Source: Nitrospirota bacterium (lineage in GTDB: Bacteria > Nitrospirota > Thermodesulfovibrionia > Thermodesulfovibrionales > JdFR-85). Taken from it: a DNA stretch of 39,133 nucleotides. This document shows positions 6,763 through 30,664 of the stretch, one piece after another (within the stretch, counting starts at the first letter, position 1; every line of letters begins with the position of its first letter). The notes beneath the pieces are model-generated. The model did no database searches. It had not been told where the DNA came from and saw only the letters and a list, made by a program, of their open reading frames with translations. Where the stretch lies: positions 1-39,133 of the forward strand of contig JAADGG010000093.1 in NCBI GenBank assembly GCA_013152485.1. Direction: 5' to 3'. Made by a program: the position numbers and the translations under genes.

Positions 6763-8642
6763 ATGCGATACATAATACTCGGTACTGCCGGACATATAGA
6801 CCACGGCAAGAGCTCCCTGGTGAAGGCCCTTACCGGTGTTGACCCGGACCGGCTGAAGGAGGAGAAGGAGCGCGGCATAACCATAGACCTGGGGTTTGCC
6901 GACATTCACTATCCTGACGGCCTCACGGTCGGTATCGTGGACGTCCCGGGCCATGAGCGGCTGGTAAGGAACATGCTCGCCGGTGCAGGCGGCATCGATA
7001 TCGTGCTCCTGGTCATCGCCGCCGACGAGGGGGTGATGCCGCAGAGCAGGGAGCACCTCGCGATATGCAACCTTCTCGACATAAAGGCGGGCATCGTGGC
7101 GATAACCAAGGCCGACCTCGTCGAGGAGGACTACTCGTCAGGGACGAGGTGCGGGACTTCGTGAAGGGCACCTTTCTCGAAGGGGCCGAGATAATCGATG
7201 TATCGTCGAAGACCGGCAGAAACATCGAACTTCTCAAGGAGAGGATTCACCGGATATCCCTCGGGGTCAGGCCCAAGTCGACGGGAGGACTCTTCAGGCT
7301 GCCCGTCGACAGGGTCTTTACGCTCAAGGGGTTCGGGACCGTGGTTACAGGGACCGCCCTCTCGGGCTCAATATCGGTCGACGATCCTGTGCAGATACTG
7401 CCCGGCGGCATCAGGAGCAAGGTGCGGGGGCTCCAGAGCCACGGCAAGCCGATAGACAAGGCGTATGCAGGCCAGAGGGTCGCCATCAATCTGCAGGGGG
7501 TGCAGAAGGAGGAGCTCGCGCGGGGGGCCGTGGTCGTGGAGCCGGACAGGTTCAGGCCCACCCATGCAGTGGATGCAGAGCTGATCATGCTCGGAGACGC
7601 CCCCGTACTGAAGAACAAGTCGAGGGTCCACTTTCACCTTTCAACTTCAGAGGCCGTAGGCAGGGTCATACTGTACGACTGCAGCGAGCTGAAACCCGGA
7701 GAAAGAGCGTTCTGTCAGATAAGGGTCGAAGAGCCGGTGGTGGCGGTCTCAGGCGACAGGTTCATAATCCGGCGCTTCTCTCCCGTGGTCACCATCGGCG
7801 GCGGTGTCATCCTCGATTCACAGGCGAGAAAGAGGCGCAGGAAGGAGGGTCTCGACGACCTGGAGGTCTACAGGGACGGCAGCCTCGGAGACAAGATCGC
7901 CACCAAGGTGAGGAGGTCTGGTGTCAGGGGGATGACCTACCACCTGCTGCAGGGCTGGATAAACGCTGACACCGCTGAGATCGACGAAGCGGCAGCCGGA
8001 CTGAAGAGAGAGGGCATACTCGTACAGTTCGACGACCGGCTGATACACAGGGATGTTTTTCAGGGCCTCAGGGACAGGATTACAGACACCCTCCGGAGGT
8101 TTCACGAGAACAATCCGCTCAAGCCCGGCATGTCGAAGGAGGTCCTCAGGTCCCTCTTCGGGCTCGAGCAGAGGACCTTTCAGGGGATCCTCTCGATAAT
8201 GGACGAGACGGTCGTAGACAAGGACACGGTGAGGCTTGCAGACTTCACCGTGGCGGTCACGGACCGCTTCATGGAGATAAAGGAAGGAGTCATCGAGCTC
8301 CTTAGCAAGAAGGGCTTTCAGCCGCCCACAAAGGATGAACTTTCAGAGTACTTCGGCCTCAAGGTGAAGGAGATGGAGGACATACTGAAACTCATGGTAC
8401 AGGAGGGCGGCATCACGAGGATAACCGACTCGGTGTATCTCCTCAGGGAGGATTACGAGAGGATGCTCGGGCTCCTGCGGGAGTATTACGCCGGGAAGGA
8501 CTCGATGAGTGTGGGCGAGTTCCGCGACCTCCTCGGTACCACGAGGAAATACGCCCTGCCGTTCCTGGAGCACCTGGACTCGAACAAGATAACCCTGAGG
8601 GTCGGGGATGTGAGGAAGATCCACCCCGCATTCAGGAAGTGA
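6763..8642 (+). pseudogene. selB: Selenocysteine-specific elongation factor SelB, frameshifted
   Basis: SelB delivers selenocysteyl-tRNA to the ribosome at UGA codons with a SECIS. Frame one (6763 to 7164) encodes the GTPase opening: [13 protein letters not shown] (P-loop), [10 protein letters not shown] (switch I), DVPGHERLV (G3) and ITKADLV (G4). From about 7132 homology continues in another frame ([15 protein letters not shown]..., ending 8642) through the EF-Tu-like barrels (GFGTVVTGTA) and the C-terminal winged helices. E. coli and Moorella SelB, from memory, have 15 residues between the DxV of G4 and the following E/R-E/D-hydrophobic helix end. Adding one base leaves 13 here, so loss of about 7 nt near 7131 fits better than loss of 1. 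The start is ATG 6763 with a weak ribosome-binding site. Everything downstream is intact, implying a recent lesion or an assembly error. Confidence 0.88.
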
Positions 8643-13370: not shown

Positions 13371-13952
13371 ATGCGGACCTCTGATGCGGAACATCACGGC
13401 GCTGCCGGCAGCCGGACCGATATACCGGATGCCGTGCTCGAGGCTGCGGGGAAGATACGGCTCCTCATACTCGATGTCGACGGAGTCCTCACCGACGGTG
13501 GTATAATACTCGACAACGAGGGCAATGAGCTCAAGTCCTTCCACGTCCGTGACGGACACGGGATAAAACTCCTTATACGCAAGGGGGTCGGTGTGGCCAT
13601 AATCACGGGTCGCCACTCGAGGGTGGTCGAACGCAGGGCGCATGAGCTCGGCGTGAAGGAGATCCACCAGAGGTGTCTGAACAAGGTGACGGCGTATGAG
13701 CAGATAAAGGAGAAGTTTGCCCTGCAGGACGAAGAGATCGCATACATCGGCGACGATGTCGTCGACATCCCGATACTCAGGAGGGTGGGATTGCCTGTGA
13801 CCGTTGCCGATGCATCCGAGGACGTGAGGGATTTCGCGATGATGGTGACCGTGAACAGGGGGGGCAGGGGGGCCGTGCGGGAGATCACGGACCTCATACT
13901 GAGGGCAAAGGGGCTGTGGAAAGGTATAATCGATGACTACATTAAGGCTTAA
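13371..13952 (+). CDS. kdsC: Kdo-8-phosphate phosphatase (HAD family)
   Basis: This enzyme removes phosphate from Kdo-8-P to give Kdo. HAD motif I is LLILDVDGVLTDG, motif II is IITGR, and the DDVVDIPIL acidic motif IV is present; the protein is compact (193 residues) with no cap domain, as in the tetrameric KdsC group. AAAGGAGA is 8-9 nt before the ATG. The first 25 residues (with SDAEHHGAAGSRTD) extend beyond typical KdsC and look unstructured. The 3' end overlaps pgsA by 20 bp, indicating coupled expression. Confidence 0.95.
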   Translation: MRTSDAEHHGAAGSRTDIPDAVLEAAGKIRLLILDVDGVLTDGGIILDNEGNELKSFHVRDGHGIKLLIRKGVGVAIITGRHSRVVERRAHELGVKEIHQRCLNKVTAYEQIKEKFALQDEEIAYIGDDVVDIPILRRVGLPVTVADASEDVRDFAMMVTVNRGGRGAVREITDLILRAKGLWKGIIDDYIKA

Positions 13953-14469
13953 CATCCCGACCATCCTGACGTTCAGCCGCATAGTCTCCATACCCTTCTT
14001 TCTCGTGCTTGCTCCCGACTATCCGTTCTGGGGGGCCCTGATATTCGGCCTTGCGTCACTGACGGATTTCCTCGACGGCTACATAGCGAGGAAGACGGGA
14101 CAGATTACGAAGTTCGGGATAATCATGGACCCTATAGCCGACAAGTTCCTGGTAATATCGGCACTGATACTCCTGGTCGACATGGGCAGTCTTTCGGCCT
14201 TTGTGGCGATAGTGATCATCGTCAGGGAGTTCCTGGTGACCGGGCTGAGGGTGGTCGCCCTGTCGAAGAACATCGTGATGCCTGCCGAGATGGGTGGAAA
14301 GCTCAAGACCGCGGCCCAGATAGCGGCCATTCTGTGCCTCGTCCTGAAGGACAGCCTGTTCGGCATAAACCTGTACGCCCCCGGGGTCGTCCTGATATGG
14401 ATCGCCCTGATGCTTGCGGTCTTCTCCGGGGTCAGATATACTGTTTCGTTCTGGAAGGCGGTGACATGA
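13933..14469 (+). CDS. pgsA: CDP-diacylglycerol-glycerol-3-phosphate 3-phosphatidyltransferase
   Basis: This is an inner-membrane enzyme making phosphatidylglycerol-phosphate. The CDP-alcohol phosphotransferase signature is complete: D-FLDG-YIAR, then G-IIMD-PIAD with all three catalytic aspartates. Hydrophobic segments around it (VSIPFFLVLAPDY, FLVISALILLVDM, VVLIWIALMLAVF) give the expected multi-pass membrane topology. At 178 residues the length is standard. It overlaps kdsC upstream by 20 bp and plsY downstream by 4 bp (ATGA). PgsA and PlsY are not fully distinguishable from other members of the family by eye, but motif and length favour PgsA. Confidence 0.93.
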   Translation: MTTLRLNIPTILTFSRIVSIPFFLVLAPDYPFWGALIFGLASLTDFLDGYIARKTGQITKFGIIMDPIADKFLVISALILLVDMGSLSAFVAIVIIVREFLVTGLRVVALSKNIVMPAEMGGKLKTAAQIAAILCLVLKDSLFGINLYAPGVVLIWIALMLAVFSGVRYTVSFWKAVT

Positions 14470-15059
14470 TACTCTTTGTGTTGCTGACGGTCGCCTATAT
14501 TGCGGGAGCCATTCCCTTCGGCATGATAATGGCGAAGGCGAGGGGGGTCGACCTCAGGAGGTCGGGCAGCGGCAACATAGGGGCCACCAATGTGCTGAGG
14601 ACCATGGGGAAGAAGGAGGCGGTATTCACCCTTGCCGGAGATATCATGAAGGGGGCCTTTGCGGTTGCCCTGCTGAAGGTTTCAGGATACGGCGATCCGT
14701 ACACAGGCCTTGCCGGCCTGCTGGCCGTGATCGGGCACGACTATCCGGTCTTCCTGAGGTTCCGGGGAGGAAAGGGGGTTGCGACTTCCATAGGGGTGCT
14801 GCTCGTGTATGCGCCGTATGTCGGCCTGTTGACCGTGCTGATATGGCTTTCGGTGGTATTCATATCCAGGTACTCATCCCTTGGTGCACTTGCGGCCTTC
14901 ACCTTCTTGCCCCTGAACATGCTCTTTTTGCGGAAGGATGCCGCAGGCCTCTACCTCTCCATAGTCCTCGCAGCGCTCATCTACGTAAAGCATCGTGACA
15001 ACATCAGGAGGCTCCTGCAGGGCAGAGAGCCGAAGATTGGACAAAAAAAAAATAATTAA
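14466..15059 (+). CDS. plsY: Glycerol-3-phosphate acyltransferase PlsY
   Basis: This inner-membrane enzyme transfers the acyl group of acyl-phosphate to glycerol-3-phosphate, the first step of phospholipid synthesis. The start is ATG 14466, overlapping the pgsA stop as ATGA; upstream in-frame sequence is the shadow of pgsA. The family motifs are SGNIGATNVLR, the GHDYPVFLRFRGGKGVATS block, and a C-terminal region ending KHRDNIRRLLQG. Five hydrophobic segments are visible. The gene ends in a poly-A run encoding KKNN, just before a new promoter. Confidence 0.96.
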   Translation: MILFVLLTVAYIAGAIPFGMIMAKARGVDLRRSGSGNIGATNVLRTMGKKEAVFTLAGDIMKGAFAVALLKVSGYGDPYTGLAGLLAVIGHDYPVFLRFRGGKGVATSIGVLLVYAPYVGLLTVLIWLSVVFISRYSSLGALAAFTFLPLNMLFLRKDAAGLYLSIVLAALIYVKHRDNIRRLLQGREPKIGQKKNN

Positions 15060-15150: not shown

Positions 15151-16827
15151 ATGTGCTTGAAGAAAACGTCTCTTCTTTTTCTGTTTCTGAGCCTGTTGCT
15201 GTTGTCGGCCCATCTGCTCTCTGCACAGGTGCTTTGGGCGAAACATCTGTCGGAGGAAGCCCTCGTAACACCGGAGGCCTATACCTATCTCCTGCTGGAG
15301 GAGGCCAGAAAGAAGCCGGACCCCGAGTCCCTCGAGCTCATCGGAAAGGCCATAAAGGTTTCTCCGGATGATCCGGCTCCGTACTTTGAGCTGTTCGACA
15401 GGACCTTTTCGCTCCACCCGCAGAAGTTTTTTCATTCACTGAACTACCTGTTCAAGGGCATATCCGCATACACCAAGAGCTTCTGGTGGTTTTTCAACCT
15501 TACGGGCATACTGTCCGGGGCCGTACTGACCGCACTCGTCCTGATACCCATAATAATTGCATTGTCGAGACTGCCGCTCGACATACCGCTGATGGCTCAC
15601 GAGATAGAGGAGAACACGAGGGCGGCCGGCTATCTCCTCGTCCTCCTGCCATCCGTGCTCGGTCCGTACTACTTTCTCGCCGCAATCTGTTTTCTCTCCC
15701 TGATGCACCTGAAGGGACGGCCCCGATATGCGGGGTACCTGTTGCTTTTCGTGCTCATCTTCACTCCCCTGCTGTCGGCCTACATGAAGGCCTATCTCTC
15801 CGTGAGCTCTTCCCCCGAGGTAAAGGCCGCCGTTGCGGTCAACGAGGGCAGGAGCAACGTCTACGCGACCGAGGTGCTCCGGGGCAAGGCAGAGGATCCC
15901 CTGAGGTTCTCATACGCGCTTGCACTGCAGCGTGAGGGCAGACTGCGGGCTGCTGCCGAGGAGTACAGGAAACTGCTGAATTCGGGCAGGGATCCGAGGG
16001 TTTACATAAACCTCGGAAACTGCTATGCCGGGATGAGGCGGCTGGACAAGGCTATCGAGATGTATAACGAGTCCATCAAGATCAAGCCGCTCCCCTCTGC
16101 TTATTACAACCTGAGCATGCTTGCGCGGGAGAAGCTGGATTTCGTTGCCGGAGACAGGTACTTCCAGCAGGCCTCCGATATGGACTTCGACCGGATCGCG
16201 CAATTCAGGGAACTGCGCAACGATCTCAAGAAGCTCGCACTCATGGAAGAGACCCTGTCGGAGAGGGAACTGCTCTCCTTTGCCCTCGGCTGGGGGATGA
16301 ACAACCTCAAGCCCCTTTCCGTCACCGGCCCCCTGCTGTTGACGGTCTTCTCGTTCCTGTTGATAGCCGTTCTGTTTGTGACGCGTGAGTCGAGCTCTAT
16401 GGCGTCGAGGTGTCAGAAGTGCGGAAAACTCTACTGTACCGCGTGTGAAAGGCGCATCCCGAGGGTGGGAATGTGTACGGAATGTTTCCGGTCGATGATA
16501 TCCTTCGAGTCGAACCCGGCCGAGAGGATAGATACCATCGTCAAGACGCACAACTACCTCAAGAGGAGGCGCAGGATACTGAGCGTGCTCTCGTTTACCG
16601 TGCCCGGGCTTACCCTGTTTTACGGCGGGAGGATGTTCAGCGGGCTCTTCTTTTCCTTCATGTTCCTCTTCTCCGCCGCTGCGCTGGTCTTCTCCCAGAT
16701 ATTCACTTTCAACATACAGCCGTACAAACATAACTGGCTTACGTCCCTGCTGTTCCTTATGCTGGTGTTCTTCTATCTGTCAGGCAATCTCTACGCGATC
16801 AGGAGGCTCAGGAAAGGATGGCTCTGA
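15151..16827 (+). CDS. TPR-containing membrane protein with double zinc ribbon
   Basis: The family was not recognised; 558 residues. Order: an N-terminal signal/anchor (SLLFLFLSLLLLSAHLLSA), a segment with KPDPESLELIGKAI, two to four membrane helices about residues 110-230, then TPR repeats about 255-360 (YALALQREGRLRAAAEEYRKLL, with its partner VYINLGNCYAGMRRLDKAIE), another helix (LLLTVFSFLLIAVLFV), a zinc ribbon with paired CxxC motifs (CQKCGKLYCTACERR and the following CTEC), and two or three C-terminal helices. The gene overlaps the next gene by 10 bp, so the two proteins are probably made together. The combination of TPR, zinc ribbon and helices suggests a scaffold at the inner membrane, perhaps for pilus or secretion assembly, but that is only inferred from the neighbour. 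Confidence 0.75.
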   Translation: MCLKKTSLLFLFLSLLLLSAHLLSAQVLWAKHLSEEALVTPEAYTYLLLEEARKKPDPESLELIGKAIKVSPDDPAPYFELFDRTFSLHPQKFFHSLNYLFKGISAYTKSFWWFFNLTGILSGAVLTALVLIPIIIALSRLPLDIPLMAHEIEENTRAAGYLLVLLPSVLGPYYFLAAICFLSLMHLKGRPRYAGYLLLFVLIFTPLLSAYMKAYLSVSSSPEVKAAVAVNEGRSNVYATEVLRGKAEDPLRFSYALALQREGRLRAAAEEYRKLLNSGRDPRVYINLGNCYAGMRRLDKAIEMYNESIKIKPLPSAYYNLSMLAREKLDFVAGDRYFQQASDMDFDRIAQFRELRNDLKKLALMEETLSERELLSFALGWGMNNLKPLSVTGPLLLTVFSFLLIAVLFVTRESSSMASRCQKCGKLYCTACERRIPRVGMCTECFRSMISFESNPAERIDTIVKTHNYLKRRRRILSVLSFTVPGLTLFYGGRMFSGLFFSFMFLFSAAALVFSQIFTFNIQPYKHNWLTSLLFLMLVFFYLSGNLYAIRRLRKGWL

Positions 16828-17864
16828 CCGGATCCATAAAAGAGTTCGGCCTTGCAGACATTCTGCAGCTTATATACTTTCAGAAGAAGACCGGGATCCT
16901 GAAGATCGACGGTCCCGCCGACAACATCAAGATCTACTTCCATGAGGGCAACATTGTTGCCGCGCGTTCGGCCAAGAGGCCGGAGGAGAATCGCATAGGC
17001 AACATACTGCTCAAGAAAGGCATCCTCAAGGAAGAAGAGCTCAAGGCCCTGCTCCAGAGGCAGGCGGAGACCGGCACGAGGCTCGGGAGCCTCCTCATCC
17101 AGGAGAATCTCGTATCAAAGGACGTTCTCATAGACATAATCACCCACCAGATCACCGACCAGATAGTCCAGATGTTCACGTGGAAGAAGGGCACATACGA
17201 GTTCACGCCCCAGGGCGTGCCGATAGACAAGAATCTCGGCCTCTCCCTCGACACGCAGCACCTGCTGATGGAGGGGCTGAGGATTGTGGACGAATGGTCG
17301 ATCATCGAAGGAACGCTCACACTCGATACGGTCTTCGAGAAGACGGAGAAGGCCAAGGATGCAGAGCTCACCGAGGAGGAGCAGGAGGCCCTCGCACTGG
17401 TAGACGGGGAGAACGATGTGAGCACCATCATCGAGCTCTCGGGCAAGGACGACTTCGGTATTTCGAAGACGCTCGTCTCCCTGCTGGAGAAGGGTCTCAT
17501 TGCGCCTGTGGAAGAGGCGAAAGAGGTTGCGGAAGAGCCTGTCAGAAAGAGGAATGTCGCGGCCGTGATGACGTATCTCATCCCGCTGTTCATTATTGTC
17601 GCCCTTGCGGTCTCGTTTGTTCCGGCTGCCGTCGACAGCATGCCGGTGATAGAGAGGCTCAGGGCCTCCAACACGCTGGAGACCCTCAGGCTGTACGTTG
17701 AATCATTCAGGGTGAAGACCGGTTACTACCCCGAGGAGATCCCTTTCGGCAAGCCGATGGACCCGTGGGGAAATCCCTACATATACCAGCGTACCGGTGA
17801 CGGATACAGGCTCTTCAGTGCAGGCCCGGATGGAAAGCCGGACACCTCTGATGATATACTATAA
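16818..17864 (+). CDS. DUF4388 (PATAN)-type protein with membrane helix and pseudopilin-like tail
   Basis: This is a 348-residue protein. Residues 1-60 (LTGSIKEFGLADILQLIYFQKKTGILKI, then IKIYFHEGNIVAA) match the DUF4388/PATAN pattern found in bacterial signalling and gliding proteins. A helical central part follows (LLKKGILKEEELKALL, with LGSLLIQENLVSKDVLIDII), then one membrane helix about residue 246 (YLIPLFIIVALAVSFVPAAV). The C-terminal 65 residues (YYPEEIPFGKPMDPWGNPYIY, then FSAGPDGKPDTSDDI) look like the C-terminal part of GspG-type major pseudopilins, including the DPWGNPY and GxDGxxxTxDDI calcium-loop signature. There is no prepilin N-terminus, so it should not be processed as a pilin. 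It overlaps the TPR gene by 10 bp. Confidence 0.8.
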   Translation: MALTGSIKEFGLADILQLIYFQKKTGILKIDGPADNIKIYFHEGNIVAARSAKRPEENRIGNILLKKGILKEEELKALLQRQAETGTRLGSLLIQENLVSKDVLIDIITHQITDQIVQMFTWKKGTYEFTPQGVPIDKNLGLSLDTQHLLMEGLRIVDEWSIIEGTLTLDTVFEKTEKAKDAELTEEEQEALALVDGENDVSTIIELSGKDDFGISKTLVSLLEKGLIAPVEEAKEVAEEPVRKRNVAAVMTYLIPLFIIVALAVSFVPAAVDSMPVIERLRASNTLETLRLYVESFRVKTGYYPEEIPFGKPMDPWGNPYIYQRTGDGYRLFSAGPDGKPDTSDDIL

Positions 17865-17913: not shown

Positions 17914-18618
17914 ATGAAAAAGGCGGTCATACTTCTCAGCGGGGGGATCGATTCCTCCACGACCTTTGCGATCGCGAGATCCGAGGGTTATGAGTGCTAC
18001 GCCCTCACGTTCGACTACGGACAGAGACATTACAGGGAGCTGGAGTCAGCCAGGCGTGTAGCGGATGCACTGGATGCCCGCAGGCACCTTGTAATCGGTT
18101 TCGACCTCAGGGAGATCGGGGGTTCCGCCCTTACCGGCGAGCTGGACGTACCGAAACAGGACGCCGGGGATGCGACGCGGTCGTCGATTCCCGTCACCTA
18201 TGTGCCGGCGCGCAACACCATATTCCTCTCCTTTGCCCTCAGCTGGGCGGAGGTGCTCGGTGCCGGAGACATCTTCATCGGTGCCAATGCCGTCGACTAC
18301 AGCGGATATCCCGACTGCAGGCCCGAATACCTGAAGGCTTTCGAGGAGATGGCAAATCTCGCAACCAGGGTCTCGGTCGAGGGCACGACGAGATTCCGCG
18401 TCCTTGCACCGCTGCTGCATATGACCAAGGGAGAGATAATCAGAAGGGGTGCCGAACTCGGTTTTGACTACGCCCTCACGTGGAGCTGTTATGATCCCAC
18501 TCCCGAGGGCAGGCCGTGCCTGAGGTGTGACAGCTGCAGATTCAGGGAGAAGGGTTTCTCCGAGGCAGGAGTCGAGGACCCTCTTCTCCTCGGGGCCGCG
18601 GGAGAGACCCGGCCATGA
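17914..18618 (+). CDS. queC: 7-cyano-7-deazaguanine synthase QueC
   Basis: QueC makes preQ0, the precursor of queuosine, from 7-carboxy-7-deazaguanine using ammonia and ATP. The N-terminal PP-loop reads [11 protein letters not shown], and [12 protein letters not shown] and [14 protein letters not shown] are family blocks. The zinc site is C-terminal: the cysteine of WSCYDPT plus CLRCDSC. At 234 residues the length is standard. No preQ1 riboswitch is visible in the 49-bp upstream gap and the ribosome-binding site is weak. The queuosine gene tgt is present about 12 kb away but frameshifted. Confidence 0.96.
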
Positions 18619-18989
18619 TGAACTACCTTATCGTCGGTGCCGGCGGTTTTCTGGGCGCGATAGCCAGGTTTGCAATAAGTGCCTGGATCGGCCAGAAGTG
18701 GGGAAGGAGCTTTCCGCTCGGCACGTTTTTCGTGAACGTCACCGGGTGCTTCCTGATCGGGCTGCTCATGTCCCTGTTCACGGAGAGGTTCATGGTGAAC
18801 CTCCAGTGGAGGCTCTTTCTGACCATAGGATTCCTGGGTGCGTACACCACGTTCTCCACATTCGAATACGAGACAGGGTATCTCTTGAGGGACAGCGAGT
18901 GGGTCCTTGCTGCACTGAACGTGTTCTTCAGCATCTTTGCCGGTTTTGCCGCTCTCAAGATTGGGGAGCTGATATCGAGGACCATATAG
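18615..18989 (+). CDS. crcB: Fluoride exporter FluC/CrcB
   Basis: This is a dual-topology fluoride channel of the inner membrane that lets fluoride leave the cell. The 124 residues hold four hydrophobic segments, the [14 protein letters not shown] box and the [15 protein letters not shown] 'phenylalanine box' typical of Fluc channels. The start overlaps the queC stop (ATGATG), so translation is coupled and no fluoride riboswitch can sit directly in front. Another CrcB copy is not seen, so the protein would work as a homodimer. Confidence 0.94.
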
Positions 18990-19007: not shown

Positions 19008-20012
19008 TCATGAGGCCCTGCCTTTCGGCAAGACGGTCTGGCGCAGGTGCTTCATCCGGTATGAAAGGGGGTTCATCCCCTTTATCCTCTTGATCTCCCG
19101 AGAGAAGTGGGCGTAATCGGAGAACCCCAGCATGAAGCCGATCTCCGTCAGGGAGAAATCACTCTCGATGAGCAGTTTCTCAGCCCTCCTGACGCGGAGC
19201 CTGTTCAGTATGTTCCTGAAGCTGCGCCCTTCTCCCTGAAGCCTCCTCTGAAGCGTGCGCGGTGACATACGGAGCCTTGCCGCTATATCCGGCAGGGTCC
19301 ACTTGCGCGAGAGGTCCTGCCGGATTATCGATTCGACGATCTCGCTCATGGTGTCTGATGAGGGGCGTGGATAAAGCGGGCTGACAGACTGCATGATGAA
19401 CCCGTCCAGGCCCTCGATGACGGCGGGTCGCTGAAACTCCTCGAAAGTGAAGCGCCACTGGCTGAAGGGAGCAACCTCCACGTTCCTCTTTGCGTAACGG
19501 TCCATGTAGAAGAATGCCTTTGGATCGCTCACCTTCTGCCACCTGTATGTCAGGTGCCGGCAGCCGGCAAGCCTCAGGAGGCCCTGAAGCATACCGCAGA
19601 CGAAAAAATCCTCCGCTGCTGAGATCGGCTGCTTTGCGGCGGAGACGTGCCGTATCAGCAGGTGGTTCTCTCCTCCGCTGACAAGCTGTACGCGCTTGGA
19701 TGAATGACAGTACTGGTAGTAACTCTCGAGCTTTCTGATGACTGTTGCCGGTGAGCCGGAGTTGAGCAGCACGTAGATGAGCGGAAAGTCCGTTCCGTGG
19801 TCTCGCCCCTCTGCAAGGCCGAACAGCATGTCGGGCCCGTCGGCGCTCAGGACGGCGCTGAGCAGTTCCGTCTTCTTTTCCGCCGGAAAGAACTCGGGGT
19901 GGTCTTTTATGAGGGCCAGTATTTCGTCTCTCTTCCTGTCGGCCTTTGCAGACCGGCCGGACAGGCCCTTCATGATTATCCTGACGATACCTGTATGGAC
20001 GTATTCCTGCAC
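19008..20012 (-). CDS. AraC-family transcriptional regulator
   Basis: This is a 334-residue protein. The C-terminal 85 residues are a double helix-turn-helix of the AraC type (LPDIAARLRMSPRTLQRRL, then SLTEIGFMLGFSDYAHFSRE and GMNPLSYR). The N-terminal 220 residues are like the arabinose-binding/OruR type ligand domain, of the sort found in ArgR/OruR/TtgR-like AraC proteins. The annotated start is GTG 20012; ATG 19973 (MKGLSGRSAK) is also possible. It converges on crcB. It is the last gene of the minus-strand cluster that contains the HAD and metallo-hydrolase genes, but is separated from them by 171 bp, so it is probably expressed on its own. The effector is unknown. Confidence 0.9.
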   Translation of the reverse strand: MQEYVHTGIVRIIMKGLSGRSAKADRKRDEILALIKDHPEFFPAEKKTELLSAVLSADGPDMLFGLAEGRDHGTDFPLIYVLLNSGSPATVIRKLESYYQYCHSSKRVQLVSGGENHLLIRHVSAAKQPISAAEDFFVCGMLQGLLRLAGCRHLTYRWQKVSDPKAFFYMDRYAKRNVEVAPFSQWRFTFEEFQRPAVIEGLDGFIMQSVSPLYPRPSSDTMSEIVESIIRQDLSRKWTLPDIAARLRMSPRTLQRRLQGEGRSFRNILNRLRVRRAEKLLIESDFSLTEIGFMLGFSDYAHFSREIKRIKGMNPLSYRMKHLRQTVLPKGRAS

Positions 20013-20183
20013 CGCCTGTTCCCCCCACTTTGCCGGCTTCTTCCCTCGCCCGGGAGAAGTCGTCTTCCCCTCCGGAAGCCGGCCCGAGCTTCAACGTTGT
20101 TCCTGATCTCGTGCTTGTAGAGGGATTATATCACGGCGGCGGACTCCATGAAAGGTTGTCTTCCCTTGACAAACAGGGCCTGT

Positions 20184-20897
20184 TTAAAGTAGGATGATTT
20201 CCCAGCCCTTTTCCCGTGCGTAGGCCATCAGCCGCTTGTCCCCGATGACCGCCGAGGGGTTGCCTACGCATTCGAGCATATGTACGTCGGATATATGGTC
20301 TGAATATGCATGGCTCCTCGACAGATCCACCGAATGCTCGGCTGCGAACGCCTCCACAGCGGCAGCCTTTCCCCTGCCTACGAGGGGGGCCCTGTTGAGG
20401 ATCCTTCCTGTGTAAACCCCGCCGGATGTCTCTACCTCTGTGGCGATCACACGGTCTATGCCTATCCGTCTGCCGATGGGTCTTATCAGGGGTGCGTGCG
20501 AGCCTGAGACGAGGACCACGATATGCCCCAGTGCCTGGTGCATCTGCAGCCGTTCCATGACCTTGAGGTTGAAGATGGAGTCGCCGTCGAGTTCCGTAAA
20601 CCACCGGTCGGCCAGCCGGCAGTACTCGCTCTCGTCCACGCCTCTCAGTGAGGAGTAGTACTTCCGGTAGACCGAATGCCTGTCGTCGTTCTTCAGGGCA
20701 TGGCAGATGTATGCGGCGAACTTGACGAAGGCTGAGGCCATATCGACGCTTTTTCTCAAGGCATTGAACCCCCGGCCCTTGCGGCGGTTCCGGTAGTAAT
20801 ACCAATGGAAACTGCTCATGGAGGTGAGGTTGATCACCGTCTCGTCCACATCGAAGAAGGCTGCCGTCCGGCTGTTCCTGCCGCTCTTCACCTGCAT
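20184..20897 (-). CDS. HAD-IB family hydrolase (phosphatase)
   Basis: This is a 237-residue phosphatase-type protein. HAD motif I is AAFFDVDETVI, motif II is VLVSGSHAPLI, the motif III lysine sits in GRGKAAAVEAF, and motif IV is YSDHISDVHML. The helical insert between motifs I and II, the cap, marks subfamily IB (SerB-like), whose members also include phosphatidylglycerol- and lysophosphatidate-type phosphatases. The exact substrate is unknown. The start overlaps the 3' end of the metallo-hydrolase gene by 10 bp, so the two are cotranscribed. An imperfect hairpin (AAACAG/CTGTTT) follows the stop codon. Confidence 0.88.
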   Translation of the reverse strand: MQVKSGRNSRTAAFFDVDETVINLTSMSSFHWYYYRNRRKGRGFNALRKSVDMASAFVKFAAYICHALKNDDRHSVYRKYYSSLRGVDESEYCRLADRWFTELDGDSIFNLKVMERLQMHQALGHIVVLVSGSHAPLIRPIGRRIGIDRVIATEVETSGGVYTGRILNRAPLVGRGKAAAVEAFAAEHSVDLSRSHAYSDHISDVHMLECVGNPSAVIGDKRLMAYAREKGWEIILL

Positions 20898-21715
20898 TCC
20901 TCGTCAACGGAAACCGCGGACCTTAAGGGAGCGCGCGCATTTCCGGAGTGTTTCTGCCAGGACCAGGTCTCTCCGAACCCGAGTATCTTGACCCGGCTCT
21001 CCAGCCCCTCCTCTCTCAGCAGCCGCTTCAGCTCAGCCAGGGGCCAGCCGGGTCTTTCGAGGATGGTCCTGAACGTACCGTAATGGACGGGTATCATGAA
21101 GCCGGCCCTCAGGTCGTGAAAGGCCTTCAGGGCAAGGGCCGGGGAGAGGTGGTGCCTTCCGAAGAGAAGGGACGGGGTTGCGAGTCCGATCGGCAGCAGT
21201 GCTACGTCGATGCTGTAGCGTTCCCCTATGGACCGGAACGCCTCCGAGTATCCGCTGTCCCCTACGAAGTATACGGCAGTCCCGTTGAACTCGAACAGGT
21301 AACTGTTGGTCCCGGTCTTACGGCCGAGGGGGAACCTGACGGAGGGGTGCCTTGCCGGAAGGGCCGTGATGCTTACACCGCCGACGGAAGTCTTTTCTCC
21401 GGGCCGTATCTCCTCGACCCTCTCTGCTGCGATGCTCTTGAGATAGGGGCCGACCTTTTCCGGGACGAGTATCCTTGGGCGGCCCTTTATCCTCCTGATC
21501 GACGGCAGGGACAGGTGGTCGAGGTGCGAGTGTGATATCGCCAGGAGGGAGATCTCCCCCCCGGCGAGCTCCATGGGCTCGGGCACATCGGGGATTCTCG
21601 GCATGAGGTACCCCATGGAGCCGTCAAAGTTGGGGTCCGTAAGTATAGAGATTCCTCCCATCCGTATCAGCAGGGTCGAGTGTCCTATGAAGGTTATGGA
21701 TACCGTGGTGTCCAT
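20888..21715 (-). CDS. Metallo-beta-lactamase-fold hydrolase (UlaG/NAPE-PLD-like)
   Basis: This is a 275-residue metal-dependent hydrolase. The opening TFIGHSTLLI and ILTDPNF are the L-ascorbate lactonase/NAPE-PLD subgroup pattern; the metal motif SHSHLDHLS (HxHxDH) follows, then ARHPS, the VGDSGY aspartate and MIPVHYGTF. It has the two-metal site but no signal peptide, so it acts in the cytoplasm. A phospholipase-D-like or lactonase role is possible but not determined. It is followed by the HAD gene with a 10-bp overlap and preceded by the epimerase gene (19-bp gap), making a three-gene operon. Confidence 0.88.
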   Translation of the reverse strand: MDTTVSITFIGHSTLLIRMGGISILTDPNFDGSMGYLMPRIPDVPEPMELAGGEISLLAISHSHLDHLSLPSIRRIKGRPRILVPEKVGPYLKSIAAERVEEIRPGEKTSVGGVSITALPARHPSVRFPLGRKTGTNSYLFEFNGTAVYFVGDSGYSEAFRSIGERYSIDVALLPIGLATPSLLFGRHHLSPALALKAFHDLRAGFMIPVHYGTFRTILERPGWPLAELKRLLREEGLESRVKILGFGETWSWQKHSGNARAPLRSAVSVDEECR

Positions 21716-21734
21716 GAGCTCTTTCCCGCAGGCG

Positions 21735-22715
21735 TCACCGGCCGTTCTTCTCGAGGTATTCGCTCACGGCCGACGGGATCCCGTCTTCCAGCCTTATACG
21801 GGCGGTGAAGCCGAGTTCACGGCGGGCGAGGCCGGTGTCGTAGACGTGGTTCAGCGAGAGGTAGTCCACCATGTATCCGGTCAGGTGCGGTGGTCTTCCC
21901 GTCATCCTGGAGACGACCTCCATGAGGCCGGCCGCCGCCTTCGCCGTTGCCCTCGGTATCCTGCCGGGCATGGGCACCCCGAGTGTCCTTGCCATCAGTT
22001 CCACTGTCTCGTACATGGTGGGGACCTCGTCCGATCCTATGTTGTAAACCGTCCCTGTCCTTCCCCGGTCGGCTGCAGCGAGGATTCCGTCCACACAGTC
22101 GAGGACGTGCGTGATGTGCTTCTTGTTCGTGCCGTCACCGATGATCTTTATCTTCTTCCGCAGGAGTCCGTCGACGAGGGCCGGAACGAGGCGTCCCTCC
22201 GGGCCATAGGCCGACGTGAGACGGACCACCTTGAGGTTCAGTCCCTTCTCTTCTGCGTACGACAGTGCCAGTCTCTCGGCTTCGACCTTGGACCTTTCGT
22301 ATCCAGAGATTGCCGTTCCGGGAGGATCCGTCTCTGTCCTCGGCCTGTCGTCCTTGCAGGGGCCGTGGATCAATGCGGTGCTCACGTGGACGACGTTGGG
22401 GCACCCTGCCCTCAAGGAGGCGTCCAGGATGTTCCGTGTGCCGAGCACGTTGGCCCTGTGGTATTGATCCCGGCTGATACCCCAGAACCCCGTCAGTCCG
22501 CCGCAGTGGTAGACGGCTTCGACCCCCTCCAGTGCGTCCTGAAACGTCTCGATGCCGGTCAGGTCTCCCTCGACTGTCCGTGCGCCCTCTCTGCGCAGTG
22601 TCTCTCCCCTGCTGCGGTCGCGGACGAGGGCGAACACGTCGTGGCCGTCGTGCAACAGCCGCCTTACGAGATACCTTCCAATAAAGCCGGTCCCTCCTGT
22701 TACAAAGACTTTCAT
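21735..22715 (-). CDS. NAD-dependent epimerase/dehydratase (HpnA-like short-chain dehydrogenase)
   Basis: This is a 326-residue extended short-chain dehydrogenase. The start is ATG 22715 with AAAGGAGA 6 nt upstream; the frame is open further upstream but without homology. The Rossmann motif is VTGGTGFIGRYL, the catalytic tyrosine-lysine pair is YERSK, and the STALIHG serine segment is present. It closely resembles the dihydroflavonol-reductase-like group that includes hopanoid-associated sugar epimerase (HpnA) and 3-beta-hydroxysteroid dehydrogenases. No squalene-hopene cyclase or other hopanoid gene is in view, so HpnA is only one option. It is first gene of the epimerase-hydrolase-HAD operon. 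Confidence 0.88.
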   Translation of the reverse strand: MKVFVTGGTGFIGRYLVRRLLHDGHDVFALVRDRSRGETLRREGARTVEGDLTGIETFQDALEGVEAVYHCGGLTGFWGISRDQYHRANVLGTRNILDASLRAGCPNVVHVSTALIHGPCKDDRPRTETDPPGTAISGYERSKVEAERLALSYAEEKGLNLKVVRLTSAYGPEGRLVPALVDGLLRKKIKIIGDGTNKKHITHVLDCVDGILAAADRGRTGTVYNIGSDEVPTMYETVELMARTLGVPMPGRIPRATAKAAAGLMEVVSRMTGRPPHLTGYMVDYLSLNHVYDTGLARRELGFTARIRLEDGIPSAVSEYLEKNGR

Positions 22716-22843
22716 CCGGTTTCTCCTTTGCCGACTATGGATTTGAAGGAAGTCAAGACTTCCGCTGTATCGAGTCATGCCGCGGTCTATTTTCTGTACC
22801 GCCCGTCCCCTCCCCGCCGATGGAATCCAGAGCTTGTTTCCCG

Positions 22844-24682
22844 TCACCGTCCCATTGCATGGTGCTTCCTACCCATGTATGGACCCCGGTCACCGTATCC
22901 GAGCACCTTCCAGTTGGACACCTCCCTGAAGAGCGGCAATCCGTAATCGTCGCGGCCGCTGAAGACGAGGAAGCGGTTGTTGCTGAAAATCCCCCTCATG
23001 CCGTGGCAGTCGGTGCAGCCGAGGGATTCCCTTGCCCCTCTTACCCCATGGGAAAGGGTCAGATAGGATGCCGATGGATAGTTCGGTCCCAAGGCGGCCT
23101 GCATGTTTTCACCGGTCGGGACCTTGACGACCACGTATCCGTTGCCTGGATAGCCGCCGTCGAATATGCCCAGCAGCGGTGTGTCGGTTTCGGCCCCGAG
23201 TATTCTGCCGACGGTGTTCAGGCTGTATATCGTCTTCGCCATCGCACTGTTTATGGCGAGTGCGAGACTGGAAGTCTCCTTCAGAACGGTGAGGTCCACG
23301 TTGAAGAGGAGCGGCGAGGCATACATCTCGAGCTGCTGCTCTGCCGACAGGCTCGAGTCTGTCGTCCTGTTGCCGACGGTTCCGATCCCCGTGCCTGCCG
23401 TGGCTTCCGGGGCGTCGCCCGGTATCATGGCTCCCGTTCCGACCATCGCCCGCTGGATCGTCGCGTCGTCGAGCAGGTCGACCATGCGGAGGCCCGAGAC
23501 ATCGATGGCAAGCCCGGATGAGAGGGGCTTGAAGGGCCATATCTTGCTCCCGGGGTCGCTCCTGCTGCCGAAGGGCTGGGCGAGGTAGCTCGCCCTTCCG
23601 TTGAACCAGAGGTACTTGGGCCTTATCCTGTATTCTTCCCATGTCTCCTTCTCGCTCTTCCCCTCGGAGATGTAGGGCCTGGTGTCCAGGGCGCTGTACG
23701 TGTCCTGCCTCGAAAACCTGAGGTTCGTGCCGTCATCCTCCCACGTGGAGTATGTCACCCCTGAAGTCCACGGGATGTGGCACGTCTGGCATGCGATCAC
23801 GGCAGTGTGCTCGTTCAACTGCAATGCCTCCTTGTGTCTGTGCGGCATATCTCCATGGCATCCTTCACACTCGAGCTCGTTCTCCGGGGAGCCGACCTCG
23901 TAGTCAGATGCGAATATTTCGGTGATATAGTTTCCCCGCACCATCCTGTGTTGCTTCACGGCATGGCACTTCGTGCACGCATTTCCCTTCTGAAACTCTT
24001 CAGAGGCGATGTGGACATCGCTCCACGGTTCAAAAGGCGTTCCCCTCTCATCGGGTGAGGCCGGCTCACGGTGGCACCTCAGACAGTTCTCGGTCGTGGT
24101 TGGGCCGATACTCTCCACGGACGCCCACGTCCTGTCCTGCTTCCAGTATGATACCGTCCTGCCGTCTCCGGTCTCCTCTTCGACGAGGTGATCCCTTCCA
24201 TTATAAACCTTTGCGTGGCATATGAGACAGTCTATGCCGTTACGCACGATCGCCATGTTCGCCGTCGGGAGGCCGGTCGCGATGTCGATCTCGTTCATCG
24301 AACCCGGCAGGTATTTCCCCACGTGGCACCTGCCGCATCCACGTTCCGACGGGAACGTGTAATTGATGACGGTGTTTCCCCCGGTGATGCCGCTGCTGCG
24401 GTCGTAATGGCCGTGGCTGCCGCCGCCCGGGTAATCTATGCGCTTGTTGCCGGACCTGAGGGTGTAGTGAACGCTCTGCATCACCTCGTCGGTTTCAGCC
24501 TCGTGGCACGCCTCGCAAAGCCGGGCCGTAAGGAGCGAGGCATCCCCGTCCGCTTCGCCGTCGAGGGCGTCGACGTTGACGAAGTCGTCATACAGTGAGG
24601 AGTGCTCAAACGCGCCGGCCGTGCCGACGGCAAGCACCGTCAACAATACCGCGCATGCCAGTCTGATGAATGAGTTTTTCAC
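22844..24682 (-). CDS. Octahaem c-type cytochrome (tetrathionate-reductase-like)
   Basis: This is a 612-residue exported cytochrome. The start is GTG 24682 with GGAGG 8 nt upstream. A signal peptide is visible (FIRLACAVLLTVLAVGTAGA). Eight CxxCH haem motifs occur in order: CEACH, CGRCH, CLICH, CLRCH, CTKCH, CEGCH, CQTCH within the first 310 residues, then CTDCH near residue 565. Seven clustered haems plus one distant C-terminal haem fits the octahaem cytochromes related to tetrathionate reductase (Shewanella OTR), although catalytic residues were not checked. The function could be reduction of tetrathionate, nitrite, hydroxylamine or similar in the periplasm. The AfsA-type gene lies 73 bp upstream on the same strand, so cotranscription is likely. 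Confidence 0.85.
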   Translation of the reverse strand: MKNSFIRLACAVLLTVLAVGTAGAFEHSSLYDDFVNVDALDGEADGDASLLTARLCEACHEAETDEVMQSVHYTLRSGNKRIDYPGGGSHGHYDRSSGITGGNTVINYTFPSERGCGRCHVGKYLPGSMNEIDIATGLPTANMAIVRNGIDCLICHAKVYNGRDHLVEEETGDGRTVSYWKQDRTWASVESIGPTTTENCLRCHREPASPDERGTPFEPWSDVHIASEEFQKGNACTKCHAVKQHRMVRGNYITEIFASDYEVGSPENELECEGCHGDMPHRHKEALQLNEHTAVIACQTCHIPWTSGVTYSTWEDDGTNLRFSRQDTYSALDTRPYISEGKSEKETWEEYRIRPKYLWFNGRASYLAQPFGSRSDPGSKIWPFKPLSSGLAIDVSGLRMVDLLDDATIQRAMVGTGAMIPGDAPEATAGTGIGTVGNRTTDSSLSAEQQLEMYASPLLFNVDLTVLKETSSLALAINSAMAKTIYSLNTVGRILGAETDTPLLGIFDGGYPGNGYVVVKVPTGENMQAALGPNYPSASYLTLSHGVRGARESLGCTDCHGMRGIFSNNRFLVFSGRDDYGLPLFREVSNWKVLGYGDRGPYMGRKHHAMGR

Positions 24683-24755
24683 GTGATCTTCCTCCAGTGA
24701 GCGTGTTTTTTTCTCGGCGCCGTGGGGCCGGATACATCCTGCCGGACCGTGAGTA

Positions 24756-25298
24756 CTATGCAGGGACCATCATGGTTGGACGCATCCTCGATATGGCCTT
24801 CCTCGGGATGCATCTCCAGCGGCTCTCCATCTCGGCCTTCACGATGCCGTCCTGTATTGCTGCAACATTGCAGTGGAAGACCTTGCGTCCGGCCTTGCCG
24901 ACATCCGCCGCAGGGGTATTCATGGTCATGCACAGGGTGACCTTCGAGTGGAGCTCTATGAAGCTGATGAAGCTTACATTGATGAATGCCAGCAGGAAGA
25001 CATGCCGGAGGTCTATGTCGTAGTACAGGTGACTTACGGCGGTCCCCATCTGCCGTGCCCCCTCCACGAGCAGGAGCCCCGGAAGATGGTCCAGGTAGTG
25101 TTCAAAGAAGAACGGCAGGGTGTGGTCGAAGACCATGTTGCACTCGAAGACGTTGTTTCCAGGGCTGTTCAACCTGTGGATCCTTCCTATGACGACGTTT
25201 TCATCCCTTGCCTTGTGCACGTATTTCCTGTCGATCTTCGGTTCGCCGGCGGCCGTACCTGTCAATGGATACTTTCCTGTAATTTGCTGCATCTTCAT
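24756..25298 (-). CDS. AfsA-type hotdog-fold protein (A-factor biosynthesis hotdog domain)
   Basis: This is a 180-residue protein. The start is ATG 25298 with GGAGAGGA about 5 nt upstream; the longer frame to 25382 has no such signal. The stretch KARDENVVIGRIHR, then FFFEHYLDHLPGLLLVEGARQMGTAVSHLYYDI matches the AfsA hotdog pattern (...H.yyD.....LLxExxRQaxxxxxHxxY). AfsA of Streptomyces condenses a beta-ketoacyl chain with dihydroxyacetone phosphate to make gamma-butyrolactone signals and has two such domains, whereas this has one. A signal-synthase role is therefore only a hypothesis, and a lipid-acyl binding or thioesterase-like role is equally possible. It is upstream of the octahaem cytochrome. 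Confidence 0.75.
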   Translation of the reverse strand: MKMQQITGKYPLTGTAAGEPKIDRKYVHKARDENVVIGRIHRLNSPGNNVFECNMVFDHTLPFFFEHYLDHLPGLLLVEGARQMGTAVSHLYYDIDLRHVFLLAFINVSFISFIELHSKVTLCMTMNTPAADVGKAGRKVFHCNVAAIQDGIVKAEMESRWRCIPRKAISRMRPTMMVPA

Positions 25299-25423
25299 GT
25301 CGTTCCTCTCCCTGAAGCGATTATTTTTTGTGTCGGAAAGGGTCTTTCCGTATATAGATAATCGCATGGGAAACGCGGACAAGTCTTGAACAATTACGAC
25401 AGAAACATGGAGATTTGCGACAC

Positions 25424-29437: not shown

Positions 29438-30664
<1,227 letters not shown>

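Follow-up and report, generated by a model that had tools for sequence, protein, structure and literature searches.

The 39-kb window (the whole stretch of 39,133 nucleotides that was analysed) encodes a membrane protein, termed P, in which a PATAN domain holding an MshEN-type insert is followed by a winged helix, a single membrane helix and a GspG-like C-terminus. P and the membrane protein UP, encoded directly upstream, are a conserved pair: the genes are adjacent, overlap and co-occur. We tentatively propose, with more doubt than confidence, that UP and P form a two-protein inner-membrane module in which P, as a regulator which is not incorporated into the filament, would make a membrane machine respond to the level of c-di-GMP; the most likely machine is the type IV pilus.

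Gene P and its domain order

The features of P are the following (coordinates in the window, all on the + strand):

16818..17864, +: P (PATAN/DUF4388, membrane helix, GspG-like protein), ORF of 348 aa with ATG start
16818..17210, +: PATAN/DUF4388 domain, residues 1-131 (Pfam PF14332; strands and helices of the model)
16992..17150, +: MshEN-type c-di-GMP motif, residues 59-111 (NCBIfam NF053729; motif definition of PMC5013675; structural match)
17310..17519, +: winged-helix domain, residues 165-234, net charge -12 (structural matches of the model)
17556..17615, +: membrane helix, residues 247-266, extent to about 270 (hydropathy with maximum at 254-272; model)
17637..17861, +: GspG-like periplasmic pilin fold, residues 274-348 (Pfam, PDB sequence matches, model)
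17823..17855, +: calcium-loop motif GPDGKPDTSDD, residues 336-346 (PERCAL-like, one position off: Asp342 for Gly/Asn)

Comparison of the closest ortholog pairs indicated purifying selection in every part of P, strongest in the cytoplasmic part. Against the nearest ortholog, dN was 0.009 and dS 0.76 for the cytoplasmic part, and dN was 0.135 and dS 0.44 for the pilin-like part.

The structure of P was modelled with AlphaFold2 on 46 homologs (mean pLDDT 79, pTM 0.49), and the C-terminal blocks of the model were confident (pLDDT 84-91). The whole multi-domain model gave no Foldseek match at E ≤ 0.001, the best being GspG 3g20; the matches given below were then obtained by structural realignment, for which a Z below 8 may only reflect a common arrangement. 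Sequences of solved structures which match P were those of PilF and MshE on the N-terminal side and of GspG/PulG at residues 302-347.

An earlier note on this DNA had read P as a DUF4388/PATAN N-terminus joined through one membrane helix to a GspG-like C-terminus. Both ends were confirmed by Pfam, the first by PF14332 (E = 1.3e-36, 125.8 bits, cutoff 25) and the second by PF08334 (E = 3.7e-7, 30.6 bits, cutoff 21) together with a fold match over residues 274-348, and a single membrane helix was found between them at about residues 247-270. The MshEN motif at residues 59-111, the winged helix at 165-234 and the co-occurring upstream partner UP are features of the locus beyond that note.

The pilin-like C-terminal domain

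The match to PF08334 (T2SSG) covers residues 313-345, and GspG/PulG sequences of the PDB matched P at E of about 1e-3. Structure prediction of the C-terminus against GspG was the check proposed earlier: the model of residues 274-348 aligned with 3g20, 3gn9, 4lw9, 5o2y and 3fu1 at Z 9.1-9.3 and an rmsd of 2.1-2.4 Å over 75 residues. GspG chains align to P from their residue 27 onward, which corresponds to the C-terminal half of the pilin helix, and the match covers the helix 276-301 and the hairpin of P, beyond the DPWG/DDI loop. Among 29 orthologs there is no variation at Pro305, Asp315, Trp317, Ser334, Gly336, Asp338 or Asp345. A chance resemblance of the DPWG/DDI tail to GspG was ruled out by the conserved fold and the invariant residues.

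When aligned to those of GspG, the calcium-loop aspartates are kept in most of the 46 homologs (Asp338 in 42, Asp345 in 42 and Asp346 in 41). The PERCAL motif, which was shown to bind calcium and occurs in GspG 3g20 (PMC3396595), fits strictly in 18 of the 46. In most homologs from Acidobacteriota the loop is degenerate, with a DPWG-like turn often kept there, and the loop is gone in a few Nitrospirota lineages; erosion of the pilin-like tail was seen in a few (L069-L071, L057).

P shares with GspG/PulG (PF08334) the alpha1C helix, the DPWG-type turn, the beta hairpin and the calcium loop at about 25-32% identity. In contrast to GspG/PulG, it has no prepilin leader, peptidase site or Glu5, its alpha-beta loop is shortened and the fold is fused behind a cytoplasmic module; further, P stays below the cutoff of the GspG equivalog TIGR01710 (28 vs 88.85 bits).

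Neither a prepilin-peptidase motif (G/F site) nor Glu5 was found at the membrane helix in any of the 46 homologs. The observation of a pilin-like part on a membrane-anchored protein without a prepilin N-terminus, already made in the earlier note, holds. The single regex match to the prepilin motif (L067) sits well downstream of the helix of that protein; the true GspG of the source genome, used as a control, has the motif (EAGFTLIELM). Since the prepilin-peptidase site is missing, the pilin-like domain of P cannot be processed like a pseudopilin. P as an unprocessed prepilin with a long leader was also ruled out, as there is no cleavage site.

It is very improbable that the pilin-like part, as an unprocessed minor pseudopilin, joins the base or the tip of a filament. 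The spacing between membrane helix and alpha1C helix does remain about that of a pilin, with A248 placed on F1 in an ungapped alignment to the GspG of the source genome (11/58 identical), and nearly all members of the order have a distance of 51-58 between the membrane helix and the conserved proline. In other lineages, however, this distance is 58-67, no homolog has the leader-peptidase site or Glu5, and the attached cytoplasmic domain of 230 residues would block extraction from the membrane. The membrane helix of P may possibly have descended from a pilin helix; due to the varying helix spacing in the other lineages, such a descent is not claimed.

The PATAN domain and the MshEN-type motif

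In the model, the beta core of the PATAN domain is formed by residues 3-51 and 126-131 with a helical insert between them; correspondingly, a DUF4388 profile with an alpha-helical insert is present in P. P belongs to the same N-terminal domain family as the PATAN/DUF4388 regulators PixE, PixG and LsiR of cyanobacteria but differs from them in being membrane-anchored, in its periplasmic pilin-like domain and in having no receiver domain.

The insert has the layout RIG..Q82, a 5-residue spacer and RLG..Q111; in the published MshEN motif (PMC5013675), two units of 24 residues are separated by a spacer of 5 residues. NCBIfam NF053729 spans residues 59-111 in full (44.8 bits vs a cutoff of 38). The first unit, RIGNILLKKGILKEEELKALLQRQ, fits the published motif strictly, and the second, RLGSLLIQENLVSKDVLIDIITHQ, shows one departure, namely Asn97 where Gly is usual. 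Across the 46 homologs, Gly61 is found in 45, Gly90 in 44, Gln82 in 40 and Gln111 in 41, and both relaxed half-motifs are matched in register in about 17.

Residues 55-114 of the model aligned with c-di-GMP-bound PilF-GSPIIB and MshE at Z 6.0-6.3, and the MshEN_N fold was matched in 5htl, 8pfa and 8pdk with an rmsd of about 2 Å over 57-59 residues; as Z values below 8 may be due to a common arrangement, the MshEN assignment is based on the sequence evidence. With the receptors MshE and PilF-GSPII, P has in common the matching fold and, apart from the replaced second glycine, the arrangement of two units and a spacer; unlike in these, the MshEN of P sits inside a PATAN domain and does not head a traffic ATPase. 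Considering the motif counts and Asn97, binding of c-di-GMP is likely for many members of the family and uncertain for the P of the window. GGDEF proteins occur in 36/36 genomes checked, with 8 matches in the source genome.

Winged helix and topology

The best structural match of the winged helix was that of NPRL2 (Z 9.3). This match to a component of the GATOR1 complex equals the GspG match in height. The closest matches were mostly protein-binding winged helices (NPRL2, RiPP recognition elements).

A winged helix directly before a single membrane helix, a folded periplasmic domain after it and a weak TrmB match in the family search would fit a membrane-bound transcription regulator of the ToxR/CadC type, with the winged helix inside and a sensor domain outside. 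This is improbable for P, whose winged helix is strongly acidic (-12 in the window, mean -8.4 across the 46 homologs) and structurally closest to the protein-binding domains named above. This charge speaks against a winged helix that binds DNA.

We infer that the N-terminus of P lies inside and that the C-terminal domain is periplasmic, as there is no signal peptide, the ligand site is of a cytoplasmic type and K/R residues are in mild excess before the helix; the latter support is not strong, since more K/R before than after the helix were counted in 30 of the 46 homologs and fewer in 10. The fold of the N-terminal part was also counted as a reason for placing it towards the cytoplasm.

The partner gene UP

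The features of UP, again on the + strand, are:

15151..16827, +: UP, partner membrane protein of 558 aa with a signal-like N-terminus, TPRs, a six-cysteine zinc-type motif and C-terminal membrane helices
15904..16113, +: TPR repeats of UP, residues about 252-321 (family profile match)
16411..16485, +: CxxC-x4-CxxC-x9-CxxC motif of UP; none of its six Cys varies among 41 homologs
16818..16827, +: 10-nt overlap of UP stop and P start, the same in most orthologs of the order

The model of UP is confident and helical (pLDDT 89), and a structure search with it gave TPR matches only, with a poor global fit. The conserved GWL end of UP and the MAL start of P are both read from the same bases of the overlap, which accounts for their joint conservation.

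Orthologs of P were found in 34/41 genomes of the order and UP in 30 of the 36 searched. The six genomes without UP (G018, G024, G027, G030, G036, G038) are all without P as well, and the presence of the two genes agrees in 35/36 genomes; in the sole exception, G007, a contig end cuts UP where P would follow. In two related genomes (G029:C26 and G040:C1, loci L020 and L023), the match to UP reads through one in-frame TAG just before P. This codon probably shortens UP there, giving a 3-nt gap instead of the 10-nt overlap.

Distribution and gene neighbourhood

Searches covered Nitrospirota and Acidobacteriota, and close relatives fall in Nitrospirota. P was detected in 46/148 Nitrospirota genomes (E ≤ 1e-40) and in 43/119 Acidobacteriota genomes (E ≤ 1e-60). 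Thus, of the earlier note's 'common and characterised', which was to speak against its reading, the first word applies fairly well; no characterisation was found in the literature searched, mainly open-access papers. DUF4388 is named in one of these, on an unrelated subject. No report of an architecture with PATAN, pilin and c-di-GMP parts was found there either, which is no proof of absence.

The neighbours of the pair are:

13933..14469, +: pgsA (CDP-alcohol phosphatidyltransferase), conserved neighbour
14334..15059, +: plsY (glycerol-3-phosphate acyltransferase) ORF, conserved neighbour; its actual start is likely to lie downstream of 14334
17914..18618, +: queC, neighbour kept within the order

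The gene order pgsA-plsY-UP-P-queC is kept across the order, and pgsA-plsY-UP-P also in other Nitrospirota classes. In Acidobacteriota, UP lies directly upstream of P in most loci examined; on reading these loci, ComEC-like, ribF and serine-phosphatase-like ORFs were seen around the pair and no match to PgsA or PlsY.

The main rival to the pilus proposal, in itself rather unlikely, is a module for envelope or phospholipid homeostasis, formed by UP and P with PgsA and PlsY, in which the pilin-like domain would be only a stable calcium-binding periplasmic sensor. It agrees with the position of pgsA and plsY before the pair, with the lack of nearby pil or gsp genes and with the TPRs and Cys-rich motif of UP, which are typical of assembly scaffolds. 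On the other hand, the Acidobacteriota loci keep the pair without these neighbours, the adjacency to pgsA-plsY could be inherited synteny and the targets of the PATAN domains so far studied are pilus motors.

Next to queC, a gene for a CrcB-type fluoride channel (18615-18989, +) overlaps the queC stop, and TGT, the queuosine transferase, is encoded in the same window at 29456-30664. Elsewhere, a SelB-like ORF (7065-8642, +) begins with domain 2 (GTP_EFTU_D2 at residue 91), and Pfam shows no GTPase domain in it; the G domain may have been lost or be encoded by the overlapping ORF 6763-7164. On the minus strand, an AfsA-type protein (A-factor biosynthesis hotdog, 24756-25382) lies near a multihaem cytochrome c (22844-24682), and a metallo-beta-lactamase-fold protein, a HAD protein and an AraC-type regulator follow further along this strand (19008-25382). 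This region is possibly a butyrolactone-like signalling cluster, unusual for Nitrospirota.

Co-occurrence with type II secretion and type IV pili

The earlier note had suggested that P may act as a sensor or plug linking signalling with a type II or type IV system. A plug or regulator of type II secretion which blocks the pseudopilus is highly improbable. The C-terminal fold of P is closest to the major pseudopilin GspG, and the source genome has a GspG gene adjoining a GspF-like gene, together with other pseudopilins; however, this part of the suggestion was largely refuted by the distribution. Among the 148 Nitrospirota genomes (46 with P, 106 with true GspG), 35 have both, 11 only P, 71 only GspG and 31 neither, i.e. 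P occurs independently of GspG (Fisher p = 0.55, a description rather than a strict test, since the genomes are related). G017, G029, G040 and G043, which are 97-100% complete, have P without GspG. Profile searches found no pil or gsp genes in the window, and no pil gene was seen near the P locus in any lineage looked at.

The type IV part of the suggestion stands as a possible role. PilB/GspE-type ATPases were found in 36/36 and PilO in 34/35 genomes of the order, with and without P, and due to this near-universal presence co-occurrence cannot decide a role at the pilus.

Proposed function

In the proposed pilus-directed module, P would be the signalling half. It would bind c-di-GMP via the MshEN insert, and either a PilB-type motor or UP might serve as the docking partner of its PATAN domain. 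With calcium of the periplasm stabilising it, the pilin-like domain may contact pilins, the pilus alignment complex or the repeats of UP. In this way the c-di-GMP level could act through P on the activity of the machine (the type IV pilus being the most likely one), with P as a regulator and not as a filament subunit. Cyanobacterial PATAN proteins control type IV pili, PixE by binding the pilus motor PilB1 (PMC7690835, PMC9090330). The pilus is favoured as the target because PATAN proteins like PixE bind this motor, pilus genes occur in nearly all of these genomes and the fold of the periplasmic domain is that of a pilin. Counted against the proposal were the absence of nearby pil genes, with pgsA and plsY as constant neighbours in Nitrospirota; the occurrence of type IV pilus genes also in genomes without P; the lack of the second MshEN glycine in the P of the window, together with the low number of homologs with both relaxed half-motifs (about 17/46); and the calcium loop, which is degenerate in most Acidobacteriota homologs and gone in a few Nitrospirota lineages.

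Pilin folds are known as subunits of filaments, made from leader-bearing precursors. P keeps the pilin fold and the calcium residues on a protein which cannot undergo processing, and a link through the membrane joins this fold to a domain of the type that controls pilus motors and which carries a c-di-GMP motif. In its most far-reaching form, for which we see a rather low chance, the UP-P pair would be a transmembrane switch of two proteins, ancient in both Nitrospirota and Acidobacteriota and so far undescribed. One helix would connect its c-di-GMP-binding PATAN domain to a calcium-binding pilin decoy touching a filament machine from the periplasm, and the pseudopilin fold would then be a regulator and not a building block. 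The UP-P pair supplies a defined partner gene for testing. If the coupling is true, a second messenger of the cytoplasm would reach a periplasmic pilin surface by a direct physical route, and PATAN domains would have a role outside cyanobacterial phototaxis.
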